DNA of 26,014 bases from a virus: positions 1 through 26,014 of the IMG/VR virus record IMGVR_UViG_3300046028_003541; one strand, given 5' to 3'. Both the position numbers and the translations under genes were made by a program. Each line of letters opens with the position of its first letter. Positions within the stretch are counted from its first letter, which is position 1. The notes under the pieces are model-generated. The model had not been told where the DNA came from and made no database searches. It was given only the letters and a program-made list of their open reading frames with translations. This document shows positions 11,557 to 20,340 of the stretch, one piece after another.

Positions 11557-12288
11557 TCAAGCCTTATAGAAATAATGTGTTGGAGCGCCTATGTTTGTTG
11601 GTATTAAACAAGTTGATGATATAGCATTCTCTTCTAGAAATCTATCTAGACCCGCAGCTTCACTCCAGATATGATGCGCGTACTCATCTAAGACAATAAT
11701 ACCACCACTACTTATACGCGGCCACAGAGCCTTCAATGTATGATATGTTGGCTCCGCAAGATCAAGATCAAGATAGAGAAGTGAAATCTTGAATCCAGGT
11801 CTACTCTCAACATACTTATATGATGTTTCTGAAATGTTTCCCTTTATTAATTCAAACTTGGATTGCTGAAATCCTGAAGAAGTAATCTTGCCTGAGATAC
11901 CTTCTATTGACAGATCGTTCTTATTCAAACTCTCACAACGATCAAAGACTTGTTGCATTGACTTCTTATCTTTTTCGTCAGTCAGTTTTTCAACAAAACT
12001 TGGCTCAAAGAAATCAAAACCAATTACCTTCTTAAGAGAATGTGGTTCTTGCATGTTCAAGAATTTTAACCATGCAAGAATACCAGAACCTTTGAATACA
12101 CCACATTCCACGATATCGCCTGGAATATTTTTTACCTTCTCATATAATGAATATCTCCAAAGAAGCTTATGAAGTACATTTCTATCGGACGATATTATGA
12201 ACTCATTATATGAATCGTATAGTTTCTGACCGTTCGTTATCTTATCATAGTTGTTGTATATGTTAACGGTCAATTTACAATTCCCCAT
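11557..12288 (-). CDS. TylF/macrocin-type sugar O-methyltransferase
   Basis: This 243-residue class I methyltransferase has the TylF/MycE/NovP features: IPGDIVECGVFKGSG (SAM motif I, about residues 57-71), the VIGFDFFEPSF acidic loop, LLYLDLDLAEPTY and IIVLDEYAHH. The acidic residues in the last two form the Mg-binding site that family members use to methylate sugar hydroxyls. The ATG lies inside the end of the RLP gene with a 19-base overlap, so the two are translationally coupled. A role in capping or decorating a glycan or a nucleotide sugar is likely. Its position directly after the RLP suggests that it could act on the RLP pathway product. Confidence 0.88.
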   Translation of the reverse strand: MGNCKLTVNIYNNYDKITNGQKLYDSYNEFIISSDRNVLHKLLWRYSLYEKVKNIPGDIVECGVFKGSGILAWLKFLNMQEPHSLKKVIGFDFFEPSFVEKLTDEKDKKSMQQVFDRCESLNKNDLSIEGISGKITSSGFQQSKFELIKGNISETSYKYVESRPGFKISLLYLDLDLAEPTYHTLKALWPRISSGGIIVLDEYAHHIWSEAAGLDRFLEENAISSTCLIPTNIGAPTHYFYKA

Positions 12289-13481
12289 TTTTCTATCGCA
12301 GTATTATACTCGGATCCATAAGTTTTGTCAATAGCTTGACGCATAGCTCTTGCACCAGAAAGAGTTCCTTCAGGATGACCGTGAATTGCACCACCAACAT
12401 TTGCCATATAATCATTACCAAACTTTGATGTAACATAATTGACAAGACCTGGATGCATTCCACAAGAAAGAGCCGGAACAACATTGTGATCATTCAGCAT
12501 CTTGTTAAGTTTTGTCAACTCTTCTTCACTATCTGATAGATATCCACCAAACATGCCAGCATGAATAGTATCAACACCAGAAATTGCAGCTAGTTTGGAC
12601 ATGACATACCATGAAATGCCAAAAGCATTATTCTTGTGTGTTATCACCTTGTCACCACTCTTCTGATAGTGGAGAAACATTGGCAAATCCATCTTACGAA
12701 TTGTATTATAAACACCAAGACCAGACCAGATGTTAATATGCACACCATTACCACCATTGTCGTGGACTAGTTTAACCCGATCCTGAATGTAAGCGGGATC
12801 CGAGTTAATGCAAAAACAATAAACAACATTAGGAAAATCAGAACGCAAGAACTTTGATATGAGAGGTATACGATCCTTTAAAGAGCAGAAAGACGGATTA
12901 GACATGATCTCATCTTCCTTAATAAAGTTTACACCACCTTCACACATCTCTGCAACCATCTTTAGTAATTCTTCAGGAGATAGTCCAATTTTTGGTTTGA
13001 CAATTCCACCAAGAAATGGCTTGTCAAACGTATTCGTGAACTCTCTCATGCCAGAAAGACCATACTTTGGTTTCTTGAAATATTGCATAACACTATTTGG
13101 AAAATGAATATCGATAACACGACATTTGGTAATGTGATCGATATCAGTTTGACCTCCCATAATCTGACAAAGAAGATGCGCGATACCATCTTCTTCCCAG
13201 TCCGTATTGATTATAGGAAATCCAATAACAACATTAGAAACTTTATTTTGACTAAGGCTATATTTAGCCGTGAGTGAATTGACACAAATGATTGCACAGT
13301 TGTTTTCAAAAAGCTTATCGTTTTCCCAATGATTTCTTACATTAGGATTACCAACACTTTGTCCAATCGCTAGATCGTGTGCTGCCTTATATACATTCTC
13401 GGTGCTTTCCAACTCATATTCGACTAGTACATAGTTATCAGCAATTTCTTTGGTAATCTCTCTTATCAATTCAAACGACAT
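12270..13481 (-). CDS. RuBisCO-like protein (form IV-like, RuBisCO large-chain superfamily)
   Basis: The 403-residue protein aligns end to end with RuBisCO large chains. Kept residues (spinach numbers in brackets) are K162 (K175) and K164 (K177) in VKPKIGL; the carbamate/metal triad K188 (K201), D190 (D203) and E191 (E204) in IKEDE; H271 (H294); H307 (H327); S339 (S379); and the phosphate-binding GG 363-364. Changed residues are Y314 for the loop-6 Lys334, G110 for N123, Y272 for R295, and Gly or Gln for E60. A carboxylase is therefore unlikely, and enolisation or isomerisation of a ketose phosphate is more plausible. The C-terminal GGAIHGHPEGT, ARAMRQAID and EKWGIV segments recall archaeal form III enzymes. 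AGGAG precedes the ATG, and the gene overlaps the cupin stop by 11 bases. Confidence 0.92.
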   Translation of the reverse strand: MSFELIREITKEIADNYVLVEYELESTENVYKAAHDLAIGQSVGNPNVRNHWENDKLFENNCAIICVNSLTAKYSLSQNKVSNVVIGFPIINTDWEEDGIAHLLCQIMGGQTDIDHITKCRVIDIHFPNSVMQYFKKPKYGLSGMREFTNTFDKPFLGGIVKPKIGLSPEELLKMVAEMCEGGVNFIKEDEIMSNPSFCSLKDRIPLISKFLRSDFPNVVYCFCINSDPAYIQDRVKLVHDNGGNGVHINIWSGLGVYNTIRKMDLPMFLHYQKSGDKVITHKNNAFGISWYVMSKLAAISGVDTIHAGMFGGYLSDSEEELTKLNKMLNDHNVVPALSCGMHPGLVNYVTSKFGNDYMANVGGAIHGHPEGTLSGARAMRQAIDKTYGSEYNTAIEKWGIVN

Positions 13482-15379: not shown

Positions 15380-16262
15380 ATCGAATCACATTTCCTTCAA
15401 ACCAATTGACTAATCTATCGGTGTTCATAAATTTTGGAACTTGATTGTCAACGAAAATTGGTTCATTGAGCATATCATTATATAGTTGTTCATTCTGGTC
15501 GACTTCTACGATCTTTCGTACAAACTCTTCATCTGTCTCATAGTCGTGTCTGTTAAGAAAAGCTTTTGTATTGAAGTCCAATTCTACAGTTGCACTTCCC
15601 CAGTATATCGGTATTGTTCTTGAATAGAAAGCATGAACCAGTTTCTCAGTAACATATCCAGGATAAGAACCATTCTCATAGCATATAGCAAACTTGTGTT
15701 TAGAAAAGATATCCGTTTTGTTTTTTGTGCCTCTAGGAACAACATGTCCTACATTATTAAGATGAGGACCCCAGCAGTTTACTTTTTTGTATGTTGATAG
15801 ATATTGGACAAAATTGGTTCTTTCAGTGCAATTAGGATTACTGTTGATATACGCACAAAAATTTTCTGTTGCGAAAGGGACAGGCAAAATTTTCTCGTGT
15901 ATATCTTCGTGATTGCAATACCCTAGCTGGTTGATCATTCCCCAAATCTCTACAACATACAAGGGAAGTCTGAAATGAACACCACCATCTAGATGGTCAA
16001 AAGTCAAGGCGCGATGACATTTATAATTCCAGTATCGTCTATTCTCTCCAGTGTAGAAAACTTTTATCGTTTTAGATGGGTCATACTCTAAGTTTTTTGT
16101 GCCAAAATTTTCGTCTCCAAATATTAGTACATGAGGATTCTCATCATCATGTTTAATATTGAATTTTTTTGATAGATGACTAAGAAAGAATGGGACAGAT
16201 AATCCTGAAAACGTATCAGTAAACCCTATTCTTATTTCACGATCCGGCATGCTTATATTCAT
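15369..16262 (-). CDS. GT10 alpha-1,3/4-fucosyltransferase-like
   Basis: This is a GT10-family glycosyltransferase of about 297 residues. VFYTGENRR is the donor-domain entry motif, and KFAICYENGSYPGYVTEKLV followed by IPIYWGS is the family's alpha-1,3-fucosyl motif with the conserved Tyr-Val-Thr-Glu-Lys. The protein would transfer fucose, or a related deoxysugar, from a GDP donor to a glycan. The frame is open to 16316, but that start overlaps the upstream gene by 80 bases and has no ribosome site. The ATG at 16262, with AGAAG upstream and the N-terminus MNISMPDREIRIGFTD, looks better; 16250 is possible. No GDP-fucose synthesis gene is obvious in the window, so the donor would come from the host or another locus. 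Confidence 0.88.
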   Translation of the reverse strand: MNISMPDREIRIGFTDTFSGLSVPFFLSHLSKKFNIKHDDENPHVLIFGDENFGTKNLEYDPSKTIKVFYTGENRRYWNYKCHRALTFDHLDGGVHFRLPLYVVEIWGMINQLGYCNHEDIHEKILPVPFATENFCAYINSNPNCTERTNFVQYLSTYKKVNCWGPHLNNVGHVVPRGTKNKTDIFSKHKFAICYENGSYPGYVTEKLVHAFYSRTIPIYWGSATVELDFNTKAFLNRHDYETDEEFVRKIVEVDQNEQLYNDMLNEPIFVDNQVPKFMNTDRLVNWFEGNVIRYVQ

Positions 16263-17112: not shown

Positions 17113-17690
17113 ACTATTCTTGCACAAACAACATCATTTGGAATATGACCATCTAAGAACTCAATCTTATAGTTTGGATTAATCTTTGTAAGACATTCCA
17201 TTGCACTTGACATACTCACATAAGACCATTCAGCAGAACCAAACAATCTCTTATCATCAACAAAGATGGTATGTTCTTTACATACACTCTTATCAATAAT
17301 GTTTAATTCATCTACTACAGGAGAACCACCACTCTTACCTCCAGCTAGAGGTCCGGATGCATGAGCATCTAACCAGAAAGTAGCTCGATTATTTCCAATC
17401 TCATCAATGATTATAGGAAGAATCTCAGTAGAATCGCCTAGCCAAATCTTAACAGTCGGTTCATTCTTAAACATTTCTACAGCATCATCATAAAGTTTCT
17501 TGTTCAACTCAATTGAGTGTATCTTCTTAAAACCATATTCTAGGGCAAGCTTTACAGTATCGCCCAAATATGTTCCTGTTTCAACAAAGATATCGCCAGA
17601 AGCATATGTCTTTAGATAGTCTAATGTTAAATGAGAAGGATGATTCCATTCATAAACTGTTTCGCCCGGTAGTATTAGTTTATATTCCAT
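17109..17690 (-). CDS. SAM-dependent methyltransferase-like protein
   Basis: This 193-residue protein has a Rossmann motif I DIFVETGTYLGDTV (about residues 33-46), then KKIHSIELNKKLY with the acidic SAM-ribose ligand, and VKIWLGDSTEILP. This matches FkbM-related class I methyltransferase-like proteins that accompany glycan clusters. The segment FWLDAHASG and a Gly-rich loop lie in the middle. AAGGG precedes the ATG, and the gene overlaps the GT2 stop by 16 bases. A sugar O-methyltransferase role is likely. Confidence 0.78.
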   Translation of the reverse strand: MEYKLILPGETVYEWNHPSHLTLDYLKTYASGDIFVETGTYLGDTVKLALEYGFKKIHSIELNKKLYDDAVEMFKNEPTVKIWLGDSTEILPIIIDEIGNNRATFWLDAHASGPLAGGKSGGSPVVDELNIIDKSVCKEHTIFVDDKRLFGSAEWSYVSMSSAMECLTKINPNYKIEFLDGHIPNDVVCARIV

Positions 17691-18412
17691 GGTAATTTGC
17701 CCTTATAATGTTCAAGTTGCTGTTCGTTACCCTTGATGAAGAAATTAGCATCAGGAGAATTTGGATTTGCGTCTGTTCTATAACATAGAGTGTGCTTATA
17801 ACTTGTATCCCACTTCGGATTTTGAGCTAATACACTGTAAAGATATTTGCGATCACCACCCCAACCAGAATGCCAAAAATGACATGTCTTTTGTAAGAAC
17901 TTTGTATTGAATGCAAAGGAAGATGTATCAACAAGATACTGAGGATCATTGTGTGAGAAATAGATTGGCCATTTGCCTAGAGCTTCACAGTTATCATCTG
18001 CGATATATGTCTTGTCGGGAGAGTATATCTTGCGTAATGAATAAGCGAAATCATTACCTTGATCAAGCACCTCTACAAGAGTTCTCACATGATCTTTCTC
18101 ATACCAGTTATCTTCATCAAGCAAAAAGACATAATCAGCATTGATTAGATGAGGAACACCAGCATAGATGCGATGACCGTAGAATCCATTTGCGCCTGTG
18201 TTCCAAGGTAAAGGTAAAATTTTCATTTTGGAATTTGGTGCAAAAGGTAGAATATCTACAGTTGAATCGAAATGTTTATTGCCATCAACGACGATAAGAT
18301 GTTCAAGATTGCCATATGTTTGCCTTTGAACGCTTTCAATAGCATCTGCTAGTTTTGGGGAACCGATTGTGGGTGTGATAACGACCACAGACTTTTCAAT
18401 AATGAGTTTCAT
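17675..18412 (-). CDS. Glycosyltransferase family 2
   Basis: This is a GT-A transferase of about 245 residues. The opening SVVVITPTIGS and the IESVQRQTYGNLEHLIVVDG segment are the classical GT2 nucleotide-binding start. YVFLLDEDNWYE (about residues 93-104) holds the DxD. The ending (HCFWHSGWGGDRKY-like, then LCYRTDANPN) is typical of a small GT2. The frame is open to 18454, but that lies inside the promoter/terminator element, so the ATG at 18412 (MKLIIEK) is the start. It is the first gene of the glycan operon, 31 bases downstream of the -10 box. Confidence 0.88.
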   Translation of the reverse strand: MKLIIEKSVVVITPTIGSPKLADAIESVQRQTYGNLEHLIVVDGNKHFDSTVDILPFAPNSKMKILPLPWNTGANGFYGHRIYAGVPHLINADYVFLLDEDNWYEKDHVRTLVEVLDQGNDFAYSLRKIYSPDKTYIADDNCEALGKWPIYFSHNDPQYLVDTSSFAFNTKFLQKTCHFWHSGWGGDRKYLYSVLAQNPKWDTSYKHTLCYRTDANPNSPDANFFIKGNEQQLEHYKGKLPWNIN

Positions 18413-18431
18413 AATATACCTATAAAAAGAA

Positions 18432-18460
18432 GAGAGGACACTATTATATAGCATCCTCTC
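18432..18460 (-). terminator. Hairpin terminator of pstS with the next promoter's -10 box in its loop
   Basis: On the minus strand, after the pstS stop, GAGAGGATGCTAT pairs with ATAGTGTCCTCTC (13 bp, two of them G-T wobbles) around an ATA loop, and is followed by TTCTTTTTAT. This is a good rho-independent terminator. The loop and the top of the stem spell TATAAT, the -10 of the promoter for the downstream operon. Confidence 0.8.
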
Positions 18461-18471
18461 CAGATTGTCAA
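18443..18471 (-). promoter_or_regulatory. Perfect-consensus sigma70 promoter (TTGACA-N17-TATAAT) for the glycan operon
   Basis: The -35 box TTGACA (18471-18466) and the -10 box TATAAT (18448-18443) match the consensus at every base, with a 17-base spacer. It lies in the 62-base gap between pstS and the GT2 gene and would start transcription near 18436. It is nested in the hairpin terminator at 18432-18460. Confidence 0.85.
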
Positions 18472-18474
18472 CTA

Positions 18475-19449
18475 TTACTTAAGCGGGATAAGACCCTTGT
18501 CTACGAGATAGCCATCCGAACCGATAGCATCTTCACTCTTGTATTCTTCCATGAACTTCTTCAAGTTTGGATTAGATTCCATATGTGAAGTCTTGAAGTA
18601 TACATAGAGCTTACGCGAGATAGGATACTGCCCAGCAGCAATTGCTCCGTATTCTGGAACAATGCCGTTAACAGTAGTGCCGCTGATTGAGTTCGTATTC
18701 TGCTCAAGGAAAGAGAATCCAAAGATACCTAGAGCCTTAGGATTGGCCTGAATCTTTTGTACGATTAGATTGTCATTCTCACCAGCCTCAACATATGCGC
18801 CATCTTCACGAACAGATAGACAGAATGTCTTTGTGTCTTCCGGTGATGCGATGATGTTGTTCTTCTTAATGACAGACTTACATTCCTTTTCAAACACCAA
18901 CTCAATAAATGAGTCACGGGTACCTGAAGTTGGCGGAGGACCTAGAACTTCAATCTTGTCAGCAGGAAGATCATCACGAATGTCCTTCCATGTCTTAGCA
19001 GTGTTCTCTTTGAAACCACCATCAACGAAAACATACTTGGCTAGAGCATTGTAAATGTCTTCGGTTGTTAAGTTCATATCAACATGTTCCTTGGATGCTG
19101 CTAGAACAATAGCATCAATACCAATTTCGATGACTTCTATTTCCTTAACGCCAGCCTTGGCACAAGCCTCAACTTCTTCCTTCTTCATCTTGCGCGAAGC
19201 ATTGACTGCATCGGGAGTTTCTGGGCCGTTACCAGCACAGAACAACTTAATACCACCACCAGTACCAGTTGATTCGACGATTGGTGCAGATACACCATTC
19301 TTTTTAGCAAACTGTTCTGCTACAGCGGTTGTGAAAGGATAAACAGTAGATGATCCAACGACACGAATCTGGTCGCTGGTAGCATAAGCAGCACTAGTGC
19401 CAAAAGCAAATAGAGCAGCAGCAAGAGTAATCATAGTCTTATTGTTCAT
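18475..19449 (-). CDS. pstS: PstS phosphate-binding protein
   Basis: This 324-residue protein is the periplasmic phosphate receptor of the Pst ABC transporter. The signal peptide is ITLAAALFAFGTSAAYA-TS (cleavage near residue 23). Phosphate-contact loops are SSTVYPF, the STGTGGGIKLFC Gly loop, NASRKM, and the late PPTSGTRDSF loop. No pstCAB or phoU is adjacent, so it would work with the host permease. Such genes are known auxiliary metabolic genes of marine T4-like phages and are thought to help infected cells take up phosphate. The GGAG before the ATG is well spaced. I cannot see a convincing Pho box; the upstream hairpin is described separately. Confidence 0.95.
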   Translation of the reverse strand: MNNKTMITLAAALFAFGTSAAYATSDQIRVVGSSTVYPFTTAVAEQFAKKNGVSAPIVESTGTGGGIKLFCAGNGPETPDAVNASRKMKKEEVEACAKAGVKEIEVIEIGIDAIVLAASKEHVDMNLTTEDIYNALAKYVFVDGGFKENTAKTWKDIRDDLPADKIEVLGPPPTSGTRDSFIELVFEKECKSVIKKNNIIASPEDTKTFCLSVREDGAYVEAGENDNLIVQKIQANPKALGIFGFSFLEQNTNSISGTTVNGIVPEYGAIAAGQYPISRKLYVYFKTSHMESNPNLKKFMEEYKSEDAIGSDGYLVDKGLIPLK

Positions 19450-19465
19450 AGTAACTCCATAATAA

Positions 19466-19495
19466 ATATTGAGGGAGCTGATTCCCCCTCAATAT
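19466..19495 (-). terminator. Hairpin between the hsp20 group and pstS
   Basis: ATATTGAGGG and CCCTCAATAT form a perfect 10 bp stem with a 10-base loop, followed on the minus strand by TTATT. It may end hsp20 transcripts or be a structured 5' leader of pstS. The T tract is short, so the terminator call is moderate. A weak promoter-like pair (TTGGCT-N16-TATATT) overlaps its upstream edge. Confidence 0.5.
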
Positions 19496-20237: not shown

Positions 20238-20298
20238 GTGTTAACTCCTGTTTAGCAAGTTAGTTGTTTATATCTTCCCGTTCAGGCGAAGACATGCA

Positions 20299-20329
20299 TA
20301 TTTATATCACGTTTTTCGATCCATGTCAA
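20299..20329 (-). promoter_or_regulatory. hsp20 promoter: TTGACA-N17-TATAAA, also exact T4 late motif TATAAATA
   Basis: The -35 TTGACA (20329-20324) and the -10 TATAAA (20306-20301) are 17 bases apart. The -10 continues as TATAAATA (20306-20299), the consensus late promoter motif of T4. The gene might thus be read both by host sigma70 and by phage late transcription. Confidence 0.75.
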
Positions 20330-20340
20330 GCGTTTAAAAA

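Follow-up and report, generated by a model that had tools for sequence, protein, structure and literature searches.

A compact junction between a phosphate-binding protein gene (pstS) and a glycosyltransferase gene of a T4-like phage very probably acts, to judge from the comparison of related sequences, both to end pstS transcripts and to start the glycosyltransferase operon, with the promoter nested in the terminator. The junction lies in the window (the whole stretch of viral-record DNA analyzed here, 26 kb), whose main genes are on the minus strand. The overlap of promoter and hairpin after pstS, which a sequence-only reading had pointed out, is real: a promoter matching the consensus at 12/12 positions has its TATAAT -10 hexamer at the tip of a hairpin with a T-rich tail.

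On the minus strand, the interval from the pstS stop (18475) to the glycosyltransferase ATG (18412) reads TTGACA-ATCTGGAGAGGATGCTA-TATAATAGTGTCCTCTCTTCTTTTTATAGGTATATTATG (Table 1). Promoter scanning gave a sigma70 score of 12/12 with a 17-nt spacer right after pstS, and terminator scanning detected the hairpin GGAGAGGATGCTAT-ATA-ATAGTGTCCTCTCT (18461-18431), with 14 pairs including three G.U, a 3-nt loop and then TCTTTTTATA. The earlier description of a 13-bp hairpin followed by a T-rich tract needs only slight correction, the stem having 13-14 pairs, three of them wobbles. The loop had been said to spell TATAAT, but it is only ATA, and the hexamer consists of the last T of the 5' arm, these three loop bases and the AT with which the 3' arm begins. 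The supposed 40-base element (18432-18471) has to be extended to about 50 bases (~18421-18471), with the -35 outside the hairpin.

Table 1. Features of the junction and its flanking genes, in window coordinates
Feature	Position	Strand	Basis
pstS, phosphate-binding protein, upstream gene	18475..19449	minus	PF12849, E 9e-41; ORF list; stop at 18475
-35 hexamer TTGACA, outside hairpin	18466..18471	minus	Promoter scan; allele comparison
5' arm of terminator hairpin, GGAGAGGATGCTAT	18448..18461	minus	Terminator scan, fold, covariation
-10 hexamer TATAAT, hairpin tip	18443..18448	minus	Promoter scan; allele comparison
3' arm of terminator hairpin, ATAGTGTCCTCTCT	18431..18444	minus	Terminator scan, fold, covariation
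Predicted transcription start zone of downstream operon, within 3' arm	18434..18439	minus	Inferred from -10 position
T-rich tail TCTTTTTATA, predicted termination zone	18421..18430	minus	Terminator scan; T-rich in most alleles
AGG, possible ribosome-binding site of downstream glycosyltransferase	18419..18421	minus	Sequence, inference
GT2 glycosyltransferase, first downstream gene	17675..18412	minus	PF00535, E 1e-11; MKL start conserved in relatives

Folding of 76 nt as RNA gave -21.6 kcal/mol (z -3.1, with 1 of 200 shuffles as stable), and folding with DNA parameters gave -8.6 kcal/mol. The window element has, at the sequence level, the marks of a terminator, namely a stable hairpin directly after a stop codon and a T-rich tract; conserved -35 and -10 hexamers 17 bp apart, within the 16-18 bp of sigma70 promoters, are found in the window and in all 21 alleles described below. 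The T4-type late promoter sequence TATAAATA is not what the element carries, which is TATATAAT; elsewhere in the phage group TATAAATA occurs 17 times on the gene strand and never on the other. Upstream of hsp20 (20238-20340, minus strand) we also observed TTGACA...TGATATAAATATG, where an early sigma70-type promoter and a T4-type late promoter (TATAAAT) seemingly share one -10. Comparison of the element with Rfam returned no match above a family's own threshold.

A perfect TTGACA-N17-TATAAT is expected 0.0025 times per strand of the Markov-resampled window, and two were seen on the gene strand and none on the other. The second of these (12303-12331, minus strand) lies inside the 3' end of a RuBisCO-large-like gene; a TylF-like methyltransferase gene starts 15 nt further on, and no such terminator hairpin was reported there. 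The RuBisCO-large-chain family protein itself (12270-13481, minus strand; PF00016, E 6e-40) is encoded within a glycan/nucleotidyl-transferase cluster.

Protein comparison showed the family-B DNA polymerase of the window phage to be ~51% identical to Synechococcus myovirus polymerases. In a protein search that found only distant PstS relatives, the nearest to the window PstS was that of Pelagibacter phage Mosig (43%), and the bases directly after pstS of phage Mosig hold no such element. When the region was compared as DNA with annotated phages, no match was obtained, and no Pho box (CTTA-N7-CTTA) was present on the gene strand of the whole window. "Glycan operon" proved a fair name for the downstream genes, which comprise a GT2 glycosyltransferase and further genes of this kind. 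The likely start of the glycosyltransferase is the ATG at 18412; the mechanically called ORF begins instead at an ATG within the hairpin. Another terminator-like hairpin, with 12 pairs and a loop without a promoter, separates a small upstream gene from the pstS start (19466-19495, minus strand); its stem letters differ among relatives and the hairpin itself remains.

Related loci were sampled by their PstS or glycosyltransferase proteins and were thus not selected by the element. Hairpin and promoter were found together in 20/20 loci retrieved with the PstS protein, and a wider PstS search added one locus with the element (L177) and two without it (L175 and L176). In L176, a distant relative, a promoter-like TTGACT comes right after the pstS terminator hairpin, adjacent rather than nested. 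The glycosyltransferase protein retrieved 58 loci, and most of those near the window have the same composite upstream, with promoters scoring 10-12/12 and always a 17-bp spacer. We collected 21 distinct composite alleles upstream of the same glycosyltransferase gene, which align without gaps through the hairpin and which share descent, so that they do not represent 21 independent events. Their -35 is TTGAC[A/T/G] in 20 cases and ATGACA in one, their -10 is TATA[A/C]T in all 21, the spacer is 17 bp throughout and the promoter score is 10-12/12. The few bases between the -35 and the hairpin vary among alleles while the -35 stays. The tail has 5-7 T in 8 positions in 18/21 alleles and a weak 4 of 8 in the remaining three; L229 and L195 have weak T tails, yet their promoters score 11/12 and 12/12. 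No PstS motifs were found upstream in four loci (L195, L232, L234 and L250), where the element still precedes the glycosyltransferase. The phages carrying the nested element are a group of freshwater T4-like phages. Across 12 relatives, TTGAC-N-TATANT sites fall on a single strand of each record, the gene strand wherever this was checked, and number 68 as against 7 for a reversed control pattern. Because both signals persist in relatives despite changes in the letters, the overlap of terminator and promoter was probably selected rather than coincidental.

Outside this set the two signals come apart. L292 has both pstS and the glycosyltransferase and keeps TTGACT-N17-TATACT, but another hairpin (CAAGAGGGGTAAAATCCCTCTTG) is the predicted terminator there. 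It is situated further upstream and reaches only the -35 (TTGACT) with its 3' end, leaving the TATACT, 17 bp away, without a hairpin of this kind. Since the geometry differs and both signals are kept, a hairpin at the -10 is dispensable: both predicted functions are retained in L292 and nesting itself is optional. In another homologue (L255) the hairpin and T tail are kept and the -35 is absent; a 167-kb relative (L251) has another hairpin and no promoter. At the loci of more distant glycosyltransferase homologues (55-60% identity, L266-L291), a terminator-like hairpin is present in most cases, but its loop differs and no promoter is nested in it; nesting thus looks like the invention of one clade.

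The homologues L255 and L266-L291, together with the purine-poor start region described below, are what one would expect if the element were a terminator only, its promoter-like letters being due to chance or a fossil and the glycosyltransferase operon being served by read-through or from elsewhere. We consider this improbable, given that a perfect promoter match is expected just 0.0025 times, that a -35 outside the hairpin and beside variable bases is nevertheless kept in 21 alleles, always 17 bp from the -10, and that L292 keeps its promoter where the hairpin leaves the -10 uncovered.

The stem of the hairpin covaries among the 21 alleles: both sides have changed in 7/13 stem pairs and 95.2% of cells are paired. 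The covariation score was 0.478, compared to 0.310 +/- 0.020 in shuffles, none of 500 being as high, and controls slid along the alignment scored far lower. It is to be noted that some of the alleles came from a scan with a 21-base core, and the sample is partly biased because this core fixes part of the upper stem. As relatedness also inflates shuffle tests, we place more weight on the kind of departure from pairing. Over the 11 inner pairs, the 21 alleles contain 197 Watson-Crick, 34 G.U and 0 A.C cells, the G.U cells occurring at seven different pairs. A DNA palindrome or cruciform should tolerate A.C as well as G.T, each being the other's complement. Departures that are only G.U and never A.C indicate that selection is acting on the hairpin of the sense RNA, not on a DNA palindrome or cruciform.

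Two readings built on DNA symmetry were rejected on this asymmetry of 34 versus 0. The proposal that opening of the promoter is governed by extrusion of a hairpin or cruciform finds no support in L292 either, whose promoter has no hairpin at its -10. The other is a promoter with a palindromic operator over the -10, a target for a dimeric repressor or a phage regulator, and without any termination. In its favor, a long inverted repeat with the -10 at its center is in the classic place of an operator, and three alleles have a weak T tail. A DNA site should give G.U and A.C in about equal numbers, however, and the stem letters change with pairing kept, unlike a sequence-specific operator; most alleles have a T-rich tail, and the hairpin directly follows the stop codon. 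An operator is thus very unlikely. The reading as both terminator and promoter has in turn gained from the 21 alleles, with their compensatory stem changes and invariant 17-bp spacing, from its persistence after loss of pstS and from the separation of the two presumed functions in L292.

In relatives, a hairpin resembling this one and tipped by CTATATA[A/C/G]T is also located upstream of a further glycosyltransferase-like gene. The -35 at this second site is perfect in some alleles (17 bp to TATATA) and absent in others, so that the tip may have another role there. Scanning of viral contigs detected the 21-base core pattern only upstream of the two glycosyltransferase genes, and scanning of bacterial and archaeal genomes gave three matches. 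The recurrence supports a reusable module, whose tip may not be a -10 in every copy. It also bears on the possibility that CTATATA[A/C]T is an RNA loop recognized by a protein such as an antiterminator or processing factor, and no -10 at all, the hairpin regulating either the pstS 3' end or the operon 5' end: at the second site the tip is kept in terminator hairpins and a suitably spaced -35 exists in only some alleles. At the window's site, in contrast, -35 and spacer are constant, and L292 keeps CTATATACT without the surrounding hairpin but with TTGACT at 17 bp, which makes a recognized loop very unlikely.

A generic scan for nested elements at loose thresholds yields 0.8 per 112 kb strand in resampled sequence, and for this reason we do not claim weak nested examples elsewhere. 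Other arrangements were nonetheless noted. TTGACT-N16-TATAAT occurs upstream of a primase-like gene in L058 (~15978-16040; G008:75978-76040) and in G014 (near 123132), where a long hairpin includes the -10 in its 5' arm and the start codon in its 3' arm, an arrangement suggestive of possible translational control. In two promoters (G006:32226-32254 and G004:18711-18739), the 17-bp spacer is itself the hairpin (TTGACATTAGGTTCTACCTAATGTATAAT and TTGACACTAGATCAAATCTAGTATATAAT, respectively).

Under the favored reading of a nested terminator and promoter, the 14-pair hairpin would form in pstS transcripts and terminate them within the T-rich tract (~18421-18430), and a host holoenzyme of the sigma70 class would recognize TTGACA-N17-TATAAT in the same DNA and start within the 3' arm. 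Transcripts begun there would escape the terminator because they lack the 5' arm and cannot form the hairpin, and only RNA reading through from pstS would be stopped. Expression of pstS would in this way be isolated from that of the glycosyltransferase operon within ~50 bp. Nesting appears to have a cost. Sigma70 promoters prefer, without this being a rule, a purine start ~7 nt after the -10. The junction departs from this preference: positions 5-11 after the -10 are C or T in 21/21 alleles, since the purine-rich 5' arm forces pyrimidines upon them, and in the window the start zone 18434..18439 contains pyrimidines except for G18439. A purine start at the usual distance being impossible, initiation would have to use C/U, or else the purine located 4 nt past the -10, and its efficiency may be modest. 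A mechanical coupling of the two operons, in which a polymerase that has just released the pstS RNA would already sit on the glycosyltransferase promoter and would either reinitiate there or, by occupying it, keep it blocked, is conceivable but rather unlikely.

The element resembles intrinsic (Rho-independent) terminators in its stable, G+C-containing hairpin after a stop codon, its T-rich tract and its compensatory stem changes, and differs from them in that the apical part is not free but is the -10 hexamer of a promoter of the same direction. Likewise, TTGACA-N17-TATAAT on the gene strand is typical of the host-type sigma70 promoters of T4-like phage early genes and of other sites in these genomes, whereas here a terminator hairpin encompasses the -10, the discriminator and the start zone, with the resulting pyrimidine-only start zone. 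All nine pstS genes of marine T4-like cyanophages are flanked by predicted promoters and terminators (PMC3037559); the portions of that study considered here describe such flanking elements, not a nested covarying one. After intrinsic termination, E. coli RNA polymerase can in vitro remain on the DNA and reinitiate at nearby promoters, the elements being separate (PMC6978380; PMC6978322), and antisense starts near terminators have been seen in vivo, with sense coupling between neighboring operons proposed (PMC6978322). Such reinitiation would be expected to benefit a sense promoter located close to an intrinsic terminator; here, unlike in those systems, the predicted terminator and promoter are the same DNA. 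We found no report of exact terminator-promoter nesting in the open-access literature.

The element would thus be a compact terminator-promoter part whose basic functions are themselves ordinary. It offers a natural and evolutionarily maintained case of one short DNA stretch carrying two signals usually thought separate, and its natural variants (nested, separated, promoter-less and weak-tailed) suit tests of how a terminating polymerase affects a co-located promoter, the question opened by single-molecule studies of reinitiation.
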